From an uncultured Fibrobacter sp. (GTDB lineage Bacteria; Fibrobacterota; Fibrobacteria; Fibrobacterales; Fibrobacteraceae): a DNA stretch of 64,000 nt. The stretch is from positions 1 through 64,000 of the forward strand of contig NZ_CAMVDO010000013.1 in NCBI RefSeq assembly GCF_947166265.1, read 5' to 3'. How positions within the stretch are numbered: position 1 is the stretch's first letter; each line of letters starts with the position of its first letter. The notes under the pieces are model-generated. The model was given only the letters and a program-made list of their open reading frames with translations. It searched no databases and was not told where the DNA came from. The position numbers and the translations under genes are program-made. Below, piece after piece: positions 4,700 through 63,623 of the stretch.

Positions 4700-5611
4700 T
4701 TACTCGTACAATCCTTTGCTGAAGTAACGGTCACCACGGTCGGGGGCCACGAACACAATGTTTCCGCGTGCGCCCGAGGCGATGAGTTTCTTGGCTGCGG
4801 TGAATGCGGCACCTGAAGAGGAGCCTGCGAAGATTCCTTCTTTCTTGGCGAGTTCGCGAGCGCCACCAAAGGCGTCGTCATCGTTGATTTTGATGACCTG
4901 GTCCACGAGCGACATGTCCATGGTGTCGGCGATAAAGTCGTTGCCGATTCCTTCGATGTTGTAGTCGCCGTGTTCGCCGCCGCCCATGGTAGAGCCGATG
5001 GGGTCTGCGAGCACACCCTTGATGTTCGGGTTCTTTTCCTTGAGCGCCTTGAGAATTCCGCTAAAGGTGCCGCCACTGCCTGCGCCTGCGACCACGTAGT
5101 CGATTTGTCCGTCTAAATCTTCGTAGATTTCGGGGCCGGTGGTTTCGTAATGGGCGAGCGGGTTGGCCATGTTGCGGAACTGCCTGAGCGATACGGAGCC
5201 CGGAATTTGCGTCAGGAGTTCTTCGGCCTTCTTTTCGGCGCCGAGCATGCCGTCTTCACGCGGGGTGTTGATGAGTTCTGCGCCGAGGGCGCGCATGAGC
5301 GTCTGCTTTTCTTGCGAGAACTTGGTGGGCACCACGAATATCACGCGGATGCCACGGTTGAGGGCTGCAAAAGCGATGCCGAGGCCGGTGTTGCCTGCGG
5401 TGGCTTCGACAATGGTTCCGCCCGGTTTCAGGAGCCCCTTTTCAATCGCGTCGTTCACCATGTAAAGACCGGTGCGGTCCTTCACGCTACCCGAAGGGTT
5501 CCAAAGCTCGAGTTTGGCAAACAGGTTTACACCTTCGGGGAGTCCCACGTGCGTAAGCTTTACAAGCGGAGTCTTCCCGATTAAAGATTGCATCGATTCA
5601 TAGTAATGCAT
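4700..5611 (-). CDS. Cysteine synthase / cystathionine beta-synthase family PLP enzyme
   Basis: A 303-residue fold-type II PLP enzyme. K44 in GSVKDR is the Schiff-base lysine, TAGNTG (71-76) binds the substrate carboxylate, GAGSGGT (176-182) holds the PLP phosphate, and the GSSSGAA loop (263-269) contacts the pyridine nitrogen. The family makes cysteine from O-acetylserine plus sulfide (CysK) or cystathionine from serine plus homocysteine (MccA/CBS-like). No CBS regulatory domains are present. It starts 1 nt after the stop of a cystathionine lyase/synthase gene. This pairing matches the mccA-mccB arrangement and makes the reverse transsulfuration role plausible, but CysK cannot be excluded. 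Expression is probably controlled by the cysteine attenuator upstream of the operon. Confidence 0.85.
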   Translation of the reverse strand: MHYYESMQSLIGKTPLVKLTHVGLPEGVNLFAKLELWNPSGSVKDRTGLYMVNDAIEKGLLKPGGTIVEATAGNTGLGIAFAALNRGIRVIFVVPTKFSQEKQTLMRALGAELINTPREDGMLGAEKKAEELLTQIPGSVSLRQFRNMANPLAHYETTGPEIYEDLDGQIDYVVAGAGSGGTFSGILKALKEKNPNIKGVLADPIGSTMGGGEHGDYNIEGIGNDFIADTMDMSLVDQVIKINDDDAFGGARELAKKEGIFAGSSSGAAFTAAKKLIASGARGNIVFVAPDRGDRYFSKGLYE

Positions 5612-5612
5612 A

Positions 5613-6773
5613 TTATGCTTCCTTCGTGGCGTTGATGCCGGCGTTCAAATCCAAGATAATGTCATCGACTTTTTCGATACCTACAGACAAACGAATCAGT
5701 CCATCGGTAATGCCCACCTTCTCGCGAATTTCCTTCGGAATAGAGGCATGGGTCATGGTAGCCGGATGGCATACGAGGCTTTCAACACCGCCCAAACTTT
5801 CGGCGAGAGAAATCAGCTGCAGGGCCTTGAAGAATTTCTTGATGTCATAGTTTTCGTAAAGTTCGAACGAAATCATGGCGCCGCCGTTCTTGGCCTGCTT
5901 CTTGTTGATTTCGTAACCCTGAGCAGTCGGGAGTCCCGGATAATAAACACGCTTCACGGCTTCGTGCTGTTCCAAGTAGCGGGCAATGCGTTCCGCATTT
6001 TCGGTATGGCAATCGAGGCGCACGCCAAGCGTCTTGATGCCGCGAATCAAGAGGAAGGAATCGAAGGGGCCGAGCACGGCGCCCACGGCATTCTGGTTGA
6101 ACGCGAGCTTTTCTGCGATTTCTTTATTGTTGGTCACTGCAAGGCCAGCCACCACATCGCTATGGCCGCCCAAATACTTGGTTGCAGAATGCACCACGAT
6201 GTCGGCGCCAAGTTCCAGCGGACGCTGCAAATAAGGAGTCATGAAGGTGTTATCGACAATGGTCAGAATTCCATGCTTCTTGGCGATGGCAGCGACGCCA
6301 GCCAAGTCCGTCACGGTCAGGAGCGGGTTTGCCGGGCTTTCGATAAAGAAGGCCTTCACATCGGGCGTCACCTTGGTATCGAGCGTTGCCAAATCGGTCG
6401 TATCTTCGATAGAATAGGTAATGCCGAGGTTCTTGAAAACTTTGTCCAGAACGCGGAAGGTTCCGCCATAAACGTTGCTAGAGATAATGATGCGGTCACC
6501 CTGCTTAAAAAGCGAAAGCACCGTAGAAGTTGCAGCCATGCCGCTACCAAAAGCAAAGCCCGCCACACCGCCTTCGAGGTCGGCAATCAACGCTTCGAGC
6601 GCTGCACGCGTGGGGTTACCCGTGCGGGAATATTCCCAACCGGTATTTTCACCGAGGCCCGCCTGCTTATAGGTAGAAGTCTGGTAGATAGGAACGTTGA
6701 CAGCTCCCGTGACCTTGTCGCCATCGATGCCGCCATGGATGAGTTTCGTTTCGATATATTTAGAAGTTGACAT
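5613..6773 (-). CDS. Cystathionine gamma-lyase/synthase family PLP enzyme
   Basis: A 386-residue fold-type I PLP enzyme of the Cys/Met metabolism family. The lysine that binds PLP is K199 in SATKYLGGH; EYSRTGNPTR (47-56), GSGMAA (77-82) and D174 in IVDNTF are the other cofactor-site motifs. Members interconvert cystathionine, cysteine and homocysteine or use O-acyl-homoserine. The sequence alone does not decide between MccB-like lyase and MetB-like synthase. It is the first gene of a two-gene operon with the CysK/MccA-type enzyme. The start at 6773 is preceded by AAAGGA. Upstream lie a promoter, a cysteine-rich leader peptide and an intrinsic terminator, indicating attenuation by cysteine supply. 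Confidence 0.88.
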   Translation of the reverse strand: MSTSKYIETKLIHGGIDGDKVTGAVNVPIYQTSTYKQAGLGENTGWEYSRTGNPTRAALEALIADLEGGVAGFAFGSGMAATSTVLSLFKQGDRIIISSNVYGGTFRVLDKVFKNLGITYSIEDTTDLATLDTKVTPDVKAFFIESPANPLLTVTDLAGVAAIAKKHGILTIVDNTFMTPYLQRPLELGADIVVHSATKYLGGHSDVVAGLAVTNNKEIAEKLAFNQNAVGAVLGPFDSFLLIRGIKTLGVRLDCHTENAERIARYLEQHEAVKRVYYPGLPTAQGYEINKKQAKNGGAMISFELYENYDIKKFFKALQLISLAESLGGVESLVCHPATMTHASIPKEIREKVGITDGLIRLSVGIEKVDDIILDLNAGINATKEA

Positions 6774-6829
6774 TTTTTGAAGTCCTTTAGCGCCATGCGC
6801 CTTTTATTGTTTAAATTCGGATAAAAAAA

Positions 6830-6858
6830 TCCCGCTCTGGAGACACAGCCGAGCGGGA
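6830..6858 (-). terminator. Attenuator terminator hairpin of the cysteine operon
   Basis: Minus strand: TCCCGCTC (6858-6851), a 13-nt loop, GAGCGGGA (6837-6830), then seven T residues (6829-6823). It sits between the leader peptide stop (6885) and the first structural gene (6773), the position of a classical attenuator. Confidence 0.85.
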
Positions 6859-6901
6859 ATCTGTTTTAGATAAAAGCCTAAAAACTAGTCGCCCGTTCGA
6901 C
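6848..6901 (-). promoter_or_regulatory. Predicted antiterminator pairing
   Basis: GTCGAACGGG (minus, 6901-6892, inside leader codons 16-19) can pair with CCCGCTCGGC (minus, 6857-6848), which is the terminator's 5' arm and loop edge. Nine of ten positions pair, one as G-U. The two structures are mutually exclusive. Confidence 0.65.
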
Positions 6902-6947
6902 ATCGACCCCAACAGCAACAACACATGTTCATCAGGTTTTGATTCAT
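6885..6947 (-). CDS. Cysteine-rich leader peptide controlling the operon
   Basis: A 20-codon ORF from ATG (6947) to TAG (6885), preceded by TAGGA (6960-6956) at good spacing. Residues 9-12 are four consecutive cysteines (codons at 6923-6912) followed by Trp, with a fifth cysteine at 16. The location is between a strong promoter and an intrinsic terminator, in front of cysteine-metabolism genes. That is the layout of ribosome-mediated attenuation: scarcity of charged tRNA-Cys would stall the ribosome at the cysteine run, free the antiterminator segment and let transcription continue. The peptide itself probably has no other job. Cysteine-run leader peptides controlling sulfur genes are known in mycobacteria; I do not recall one described in this phylum. 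Confidence 0.8.
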   Translation of the reverse strand: MNQNLMNMCCCCWGRCRTGD

Positions 6948-6976
6948 TTTTATTTTCCTATCATTTACATAGGGAT

Positions 6977-7005
6977 AATATAGACAAAAACAATAACGCT
7001 GTCAA
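6977..7005 (-). promoter_or_regulatory. Promoter of the cysteine operon
   Basis: Minus strand TTGACA (7005-7000), a 17-nt spacer, TATATT (6982-6977). Start predicted near 6970, about 23 nt before the leader peptide. Confidence 0.8.
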
Positions 7006-7054: not shown

Positions 7055-7729
7055 TTAAAACGATAACCAGCCTGTATCAAGGCCTGTCACGGGCTCAATC
7101 CGCTTCACATTCTTCTGCGCATCGGTAACCACGGCCATTCCCGTCAGATAATTCATCCAGCGTTGCGGCGTAAAGGTCATCTTGCAAAAGTGCGTGAGGC
7201 TCGGAACCACCCAAGCATCATGCGTCGCAAAAATGTTGAAGCGACAATTTCCCTTTTCAAGCATCATCGAAAGCATTTCTTCGGAACGTGCAGGCAGCGG
7301 AGCAAAAGCTTCTTTTTCACCACGCGGGTTACCTGCAGCCTCATTCTTTAACCATTCGCAAATGCCTTCGTAAAATCCGGCGCGCAACACCTTGGTGTAT
7401 TCATCGTAATCTTGAACAAAGTATTCTGCCAAGCAATCGAGCTTTTCGATATGCGGATTTTCAACGCCGCGACCTTTCGCGATACAAGAAGCAGTCTCCA
7501 TGCAACGCCCTACCGGGCTTGAATAAAAGCAGATATCGCCTTCGGCAGGAATGCACTTACCCAGCGACAGAGCCTGCTCGCGCCCGCGCTCCGTAAGACC
7601 TACATGCGCACCGAAGTCAGGATCGTTGGGAGTAATATGGTTGCGTTCACCGTGACGCACCAACAGGAACACGCGTTCGTCAGACAAAAGAGATGCAAAG
7701 AAATCTGCGGCTTTTATAAAATCATTCAT
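7055..7729 (-). CDS. Histidine phosphatase superfamily protein
   Basis: A 224-residue protein with the phosphoglycerate-mutase-like RHG motif (LVRHGERN, H26 as the phosphoryl acceptor) and the second catalytic histidine in ATHDAW near residue 169. An SSPVGRCMETA segment corresponds to the conserved arginine region. The fold hydrolyses phosphomonoesters through a phosphohistidine. The substrate is unknown; the protein lacks a signal peptide. AAGGATCT precedes the start at 7729. It lies between the cysteine operon and a PAP2 phosphatase on the same strand but is separated from both by intergenic repeats or a promoter, so it is probably monocistronic. Confidence 0.8.
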   Translation of the reverse strand: MNDFIKAADFFASLLSDERVFLLVRHGERNHITPNDPDFGAHVGLTERGREQALSLGKCIPAEGDICFYSSPVGRCMETASCIAKGRGVENPHIEKLDCLAEYFVQDYDEYTKVLRAGFYEGICEWLKNEAAGNPRGEKEAFAPLPARSEEMLSMMLEKGNCRFNIFATHDAWVVPSLTHFCKMTFTPQRWMNYLTGMAVVTDAQKNVKRIEPVTGLDTGWLSF

Positions 7730-7750
7730 CTTTTAGATCCTTCGACTTTG

Positions 7751-7809
7751 CCCTTCGGCAGGCTCAGGGACCTTATTTCGGTTGGTGCCCTTCGACAAGC
7801 TCAGGGACC
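7751..7809. repeat. Two tandem copies of the intergenic CTTCGACAAGCTCAGGGACC-type repeat
   Basis: Copies at 7751-7772 (CCCTTCGGCAGGCTCAGGGACC split by two base changes from the other) and 7788-7809, 37 nt apart, between the histidine phosphatase start and the PAP2 gene stop. Related to 4651-4673. Half-sites CCCT and AGGG give partial dyad symmetry. Confidence 0.65.
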
Positions 7810-7817
7810 TTACTCGA

Positions 7818-8376: not shown

Positions 8377-8431
8377 GATTTTTCAGTCTACGTAGCTTCT
8401 TCAAAATTCTTATTTTTTTTATGAAAAGGAG

Positions 8432-8475
8432 ATTCCCGCCAGTTTATCCCGGACTTGTTCCGGGACGGGAATGAC
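8432..8475. repeat. Nested inverted repeat (REP-like) upstream of ackA
   Basis: Outer arms ATTCCCG (8432-8438) and CGGGAAT (8466-8472) enclose inner arms CCCGGA and TCCGGG. The element ends in GAATGAC, shared with degraded copies near 38022-38082 and 19095-19140. It lies 27 nt before the ackA start codon. Confidence 0.55.
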
Positions 8476-63182: not shown

Positions 63183-63623
63183 TTAGACTCTTCTCTTCTT
63201 TTTAGGACGGCAACCATTGTGCGGAACGCCCGTCACGTCTCGAATAGAGAGAACTTCGAGGCCCGCATTCTTGATAGCGCGGACAGCGGATTCACGACCG
63301 CCACCTGCACCCTTGACGCGGACATCTACCTTGCGCATACCGAGGTCGAAAGCCTTGTGGGCAGCGACTTCAGCGGCGAGCTGGGCAGCAAACGGTGTGC
63401 TCTTGCGAGAGCCCTTGAAACCGGAGTTACCCGGAGAGCCCCAAGCGACCACGTTGCCACGAGCATCGGTGATAGAAACGATTGTATTGTTGAAGGAAGC
63501 GAACACGCAGGCGATACCCTGGATGTCAATACGCTTCTTGCCCTTCTTGACCTTGACGTCTTCAGCAGCAGCAACCGGAGCTTCGGCAGCGGCAGCAGTT
63601 TCCTTAATTTCTTCTTCAGCCAC
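63183..63623 (-). CDS. rpsK: Small ribosomal subunit protein S11
   Basis: A 146-residue protein with [49 protein letters not shown] and the C-terminal [18 protein letters not shown], both diagnostic of S11. The first about 30 residues are an Ala/Glu/Lys-rich extension absent from E. coli S11 (129 residues). It contacts 16S rRNA in the platform. It lies 11 nt after rpsM. Confidence 0.97.

Follow-up and report, generated by a model that had tools for sequence, protein, structure and literature searches.

How are the two cysteine-metabolism genes of this Fibrobacter locus controlled, and what is the role of the small Cys-rich open reading frame (ORF) and the hairpin that precede them? The original prediction, made on the window (the whole 64,000-nt stretch of DNA analysed here), proposed a cysteine-responsive, ribosome-mediated attenuator. 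Its coordinates for the promoter, the leader, the terminator and the pairing segment proved correct, with all of these elements on the minus strand. The features of the locus are the following.

6977-7005, minus strand: sigma-70-type promoter, TTGACA-17-TATATT (-35 at 7005-7000, -10 at 6982-6977), with 11 of 12 consensus matches
6956-6959, minus strand: Shine-Dalgarno (SD)-like AGGA for the leader ORF
6885-6947, minus strand: leader peptide ORF of 20 codons, MNQNLMNMCCCCWGRCRTGD, with ATG at 6947 and stop codon TAG at 6887-6885
6912-6923, minus strand: regulatory Cys codons 9-12
6900-6902, minus strand: fifth Cys codon (codon 16), part of a conserved CGA-TGT and lying within the antiterminator segment
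6892-6901, minus strand: antiterminator 5' segment GUCGAACGGG, with its partner at 6848-6857
6848-6857, minus strand: antiterminator 3' segment CCCGCUCGGC, overlapping the terminator 5' arm
6823-6858, minus strand: intrinsic terminator, with 8-bp arms TCCCGCTC (6858-6851) and GAGCGGGA (6837-6830) and a T7 tract (6829-6823)
6861-6888, minus strand: A+U-rich apical hairpin (6888-6878 with 6869-6861), which also caps the antiterminator; 87% of cells paired
6888-6907, minus strand: candidate weak protector hairpin, GUCG (6907-6904)/CGAC (6891-6888), recognized by inspection
6789-6801, minus strand: hairpin GGCGC...GCGCU in front of mccB
5613-6773, minus strand: mccB-like gene of the cystathionine gamma-lyase/homocysteine desulfhydrase family
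4700-5611, minus strand: cysK/cystathionine beta-synthase-like gene, mccA candidate

A Cys-codon leader precedes a putative methionine-to-cysteine operon

The 20-codon leader with its four consecutive Cys codons and a fifth, the 8-bp terminator with its T7 tract and the 10-nt segment able to pair with the terminator 5' arm region were all part of the earlier description, and each was found in place. The antiterminator pairing (6901-6892 with 6857-6848) holds at nine of ten positions, the sole exception being an A.C mismatch. From the promoter position, a leader 5' UTR of ~20 nt with an SD is predicted, and a comparable promoter is seen in most relatives of the window's leader class (type 1). 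The terminator had been overlooked by an automated scanner because the 13-nt loop between its perfect arms exceeds the scanner limit of 8. The protector stem GUCG/CGAC is suggestive only, since other clades require a shifted register. Elsewhere in the window, positions 7740-7815 and 8430-8475 hold intergenic short repeats of the type CCCTTCGRCARGCTCAGGGACC, with an inverted repeat around cccggacttgttccggga.

The two downstream genes, which had been assigned to cysteine metabolism, are of the mccB and cysK types. The first encodes a Cys/Met PLP enzyme nearest to the cystathionine gamma-synthase/gamma-lyase families; because the NCBIfam curated cut-offs were not reached, we infer the exact enzyme activities. 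The operon is probably best read as mccB-mccA, that is, as a methionine-to-cysteine operon, with the likely pathway SAM to SAH to homocysteine to cystathionine to cysteine. In this genome the mccB-cysK pair occupies the present locus and a SAM methyltransferase gene lies at a separate locus with its own Cys leader; in Clostridia, the complete mcc set (SAM methyltransferase, luxS, mccB and an mccA-like gene) is found together. A LysR-type regulator gene occurs immediately after cysK at L036:4571-5512, and likewise in several Ruminococcus loci, so that control may have a second layer.

A proposed attenuation mechanism

The region very likely constitutes a ribosome-mediated transcriptional attenuator in which charged tRNA(Cys) is the signal sensed and an mccB-cysK(mccA) operon the target. 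This operon would serve cysteine synthesis, with homocysteine/methionine as the most likely source; conservation and covariation, described below, support the cysteine-responsive reading put forward originally. When cysteine is plentiful, the ribosome would reach the leader stop codon and mask segment 6892-6901, whereupon the terminator (6858-6830) would form and RNA polymerase would halt at the T7 tract. When Cys-tRNA is scarce, the ribosome would stall at codons 9-12, and segment 6892-6901 would stay free to pair with 6848-6857 ahead of the synthesis of the terminator 3' arm, resulting in read-through. The earlier proposal that stalling at codons 9-11 frees this segment holds in our model and extends to codon 12. 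A stall at the conserved codon 16 (CGA-UGU, codons 15-16, at the edge of the antiterminator) would instead cover it; the switch would therefore answer only to stalling in the first run.

The region shows several features by which leader-peptide attenuators are recognized: an SD and an ORF with cognate codons, a terminator before the first gene, conservation of both frame and codons and, by computation, a mutually exclusive antiterminator that is left free by a stalled ribosome and covered by one at the stop codon.

The leader is conserved across Fibrobacter

Loss of the Cys run and the pairings in related species had been named in advance as a result that could overturn the attenuator reading; a comparative search found both conserved, and the reading stands. 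Among 61 genomes searched, 22 retrieved loci encode a product at least 87% identical to the MccB-like protein of the window, and in all 22 of these close orthologue loci the gene is preceded by a leader with its Cys run in frame and by a GC-rich terminator ending in a U-tract. Homologues at most 67% identical to the window protein in the same search were without the leader-terminator unit. Among named relatives, Fibrobacter succinogenes and Fibrobacter sp. metagenome assemblies come closest; in the named collection, 12 of 14 Fibrobacter-type loci have the leader, which is absent from the Fibrobacter mccB loci L040 and L043. The contig of L035 (LVAV01000030), labelled as a Clostridiales bacterium, carries an mccB 98% identical to that of Fibrobacter together with a Fibrobacter-type leader, and is probably misbinned.

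Genus-wide, we parsed 57 distinct leaders encoding peptides of 14-24 residues. In each of them the frame is kept across the Cys run; the N-termini vary, and 2-5 Cys codons lie ahead of the last conserved CGA-TGT. Within the 20-codon class (9 leaders), Cys is invariant at codons 9, 10, 12 and 16 and codon 11 is Cys or Phe, while the amino acid varies at codons 2-5, 7, 8 and 14. At L033:1979-2023, a natural leader has an early stop (CGA to TAA) directly behind its Cys run and retains the antiterminator sequence, providing a ready natural variant for comparison.

The leader type also occurs beyond the present locus, with a further copy elsewhere in this genome and numerous examples among Clostridia and Treponema. 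The further copy, MLPLIVEFCCKNGRC (L142:590-746; G000:C12 near 63,190-63,345), belongs to a shorter class present in ~20 Fibrobacter loci, and precedes a gene for a leucine-carboxyl-methyltransferase (LCM)-family SAM methyltransferase, followed by a serine hydrolase gene and mnmA. In other genomes the LCM-family methyltransferase gene lies immediately upstream of a type-1 leader and mccB, and in L022 and L154 a short-class leader stands directly before an mccB homologue. A scan of the whole genome (3.77 Mb) for AGGA-ATG-TGYTGYTGY, with the triplet in frame with the ATG, returned this locus and only three others; these three Cys-triplet ORFs were rejected as leader-terminator units because each is embedded in a longer open frame and lacks a run of five T in the following 140 nt.

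The alternative pairings change together between leader classes

In an alignment of 29 type-1 sequences, 92% of cells are paired in the antiterminator helix and 95% in the terminator, and both values drop sharply when the helix is slid out of register. The second leader of L036, as well as L022, was misaligned with type 1 by MAFFT, and the classes were therefore analysed apart. By inspection, the antiterminator and terminator partners change together between them: GUCGAACGGG/CCCGCUCGGC in type 1, ACGGGCG/CGCCCGU in the short class and AACAGGCGG/CCGCUUGUU in L046. We regard this covariation between leader classes, strong by inspection of the sequences, as convincing evidence; within type 1, in-register covariation of the antiterminator is not clearly above shuffles and is not significant. 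Outside Fibrobacter, 31 leaders were compared (Clostridia, Treponema and one assembly labelled as an alphaproteobacterium); in 21 of them, the best pairing of the segment following the Cys run with the terminator arm of its own locus surpasses shuffles (p < 0.05). Because the loci are related to each other, they do not amount to 31 independent tests.

These pairings bear on the possibility that the leader acts on translation, as is reported for mycobacterial polycysteine sORFs, with stalling governing access to the mccB start and the hairpin at 6789-6801 contributing. This hairpin does directly precede the mccB SD, and comparable ones are found in relatives, but it leaves the SD uncovered and is distant from the leader; the conservation of a U-tract terminator with a matching antiterminator across leader classes further argues against a translational switch, which we consider highly improbable.

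Stalling at the Cys run frees the antiterminator in masked folding

The behaviour of the switch was modelled by folding the RNA before the terminator 3' arm becomes available, with a ribosome mask extending through the start of the A-site codon plus 12 nt. In the window, the terminator 5' arm pairs upstream with a probability of 0.78 for a stall at each of Cys codons 9-12 and of 0.00 for a ribosome at the stop codon. The upstream pairing exceeds 0.5 upon stalling in all 57 leaders, and the identical script gave stalled and stop values of 1.00 and 0.00 for the E. coli thr attenuator and of 0.71 and 0.01 for trp; for the proven E. coli his attenuator, the method did not reproduce the switch contrast. 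Shuffling the linker matched the stalled-versus-stop contrast of the window, taken alone, in 4.5% of trials; some relatives perform more strongly (0-0.5%), and the contrast is weaker in others, notably L014 and the short class (type-2 leaders).

This procedure, benchmarked on E. coli, superseded full-length equilibrium folding, in which most sequences show little difference between the stalled and stop states. For most sequences, and likewise for E. coli thr, trp and his, equilibrium favours the terminator, and in the window the antiterminator, with its A.C mismatch, loses to the terminator even with the ribosome stalled at codons 10-12. Since the terminator mostly outcompetes the antiterminator at full length despite stalling, the switch must be co-transcriptional, and this calculation leads to an identical conclusion for E. 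coli thr and trp.

In the model the antiterminator also forms in ribosome-free RNA, and nucleotide conservation is high around CGAUGUCGRRCGGGC. Both would favour switching by another sensor, such as a riboswitch, a T-box or an RNA-binding protein, with the leader peptide incidental. Against this, Cys codons are kept across classes of differing RNA sequence, and the window region has no Rfam match at threshold (the best, anti-hemB, has an E-value of 0.51 and falls far under the gathering score); neither a T-box nor an S-box reached the Rfam gathering threshold in the window region or in 20 related loci. We give such a sensor a very slim chance.

The hairpin might instead serve just to terminate transcription of the upstream gene (7055-7729), which shares its strand and stops 50 nt short of the promoter, with the Cys-rich ORF arising by chance or as a decayed fragment. 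This is scarcely credible given that the promoter and leader ORF sit between that gene and the hairpin, that the Cys run, frame and antiterminator are conserved, and that the unit is retained beside unrelated upstream genes in relatives. Because the genes further upstream differ among several of the 22-locus genomes, the leader-terminator unit belongs to mccB.

Related leaders in other phyla

We found a Cys-rich small ORF with a terminator in Clostridia, Treponema and other genomes: across 66 such loci encoding MccB relatives, 38 cases occurred on the coding strand as compared with 2 on the opposite strand. Outside Fibrobacter, these leaders mostly head a methyltransferase-(luxS)-mccB-cysK operon, and the methyltransferase of R. 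flavefaciens, R. bromii and others can be recognized as the protein found in Fibrobacter (motif ESVTAKLCAFARAWHS or close). Examples from Ruminococcus and other Clostridia include L053, L054, L061, L066, L067, L080, L084, L085, L092, L108 and L111, among others; in relatives of R. flavefaciens the Cys leaders end in a conserved YAQRCC. In Treponema/Spirochaetes assemblies (L047:2284-2397 and L049:1399-1473), Cys-rich leaders come with a terminator and an antiterminator segment that matches it.

In a tree of MccB proteins, those of Fibrobacter are nested in a mostly Clostridia set, suggesting horizontal transfer of the operon. The leader label changes 23 times on this tree, which fixes no single origin, and some of the 'none' labels reflect truncated loci or scan misses.

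Relation to known regulatory systems

As in E. coli thrL, trpL and hisL, a run of regulatory codons in a leader ORF is combined with a mutually exclusive antiterminator and intrinsic terminator, and the masked-folding behaviour is alike for thr and trp. The Fibrobacter leader differs from these in sensing, on the proposed reading, cysteine, in preceding mccB-cysK, in belonging to the phylum Fibrobacterota and in having just a weak protector hairpin candidate.

The original prediction had pointed to the Cys leaders of actinobacteria. Such leaders are published, with Cys-codon runs in a short ORF ahead of cys or cbs operons, but they are not the closest precedent because the candidates lack obvious, conserved terminators (PMC1262725). 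In mycobacteria, which have polycysteine sORFs, Cys genes are under translation attenuation, as reported for M. smegmatis (Canestrari 2020, as cited in PMC13236596); the mycobacterial polycysteine sORF lies on a leaderless mRNA, unlike the Fibrobacter leader with its predicted SD and 5' UTR. A nearer precedent is uORFC-8-2 of the Rhodobacterales, a predicted Cys-codon uORF with an intrinsic terminator before cysS (PMC8632094). Compared by its description, it differs in being alphaproteobacterial and in placing a pair of Cys codons within the first stem, usually at positions 14-15; the Fibrobacter unit is not upstream of cysS, and an Rfam scan gave no relevant match.

A Cys T-box mediates the induction of the equivalent methionine-to-cysteine operon of clostridia, ubiG-mccBA-luxS, when cysteine is depleted (PMC2940859). 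There, too, premature termination depends on tRNA(Cys) charging, but the tRNA binds the RNA directly and leader translation is not involved. As the clostridial counterpart carries a Cys T-box and no T-box or S-box is found here, the Cys leader appears to do the job of the T-box, seemingly as the replacement of one tRNA(Cys)-charging sensor by another.

A survey of premature terminators from 2010 limited the demonstrated leader-peptide systems to Proteobacteria and Actinobacteria, and itself contributed a histidine leader from bacilli (PMC2965389). In the literature we searched, mostly non-subscription, no Cys leader is described for Fibrobacter, in agreement with the original prediction; reports for Fibrobacterota, Ruminococcus or Treponema were likewise not found there. 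The unit appears to be a leader-peptide attenuator of the known kind, new in its phylum and in the operon that it precedes. A broader possibility, which we offer tentatively and hold to be rather unlikely, is an unrecorded, widespread family of Cys-codon attenuators that spans three phyla or more (Fibrobacterota, Bacillota and Spirochaetota) and acts on the methionine-to-cysteine operon. It would have moved with the operon and supplanted the Cys T-box, perhaps with the distal CGA-UGU as a second check, a stall there still leading to termination and the first Cys run alone opening the operon.

Cys-specific attenuation with a true intrinsic terminator was otherwise represented by a single published prediction among those we found. 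Fibrobacterota are key fibre degraders of the rumen, and an amino-acid leader attenuator appears to be undescribed in this phylum; the leaders reported here predict cysteine-responsive genes in Fibrobacter and in many gut Clostridia.
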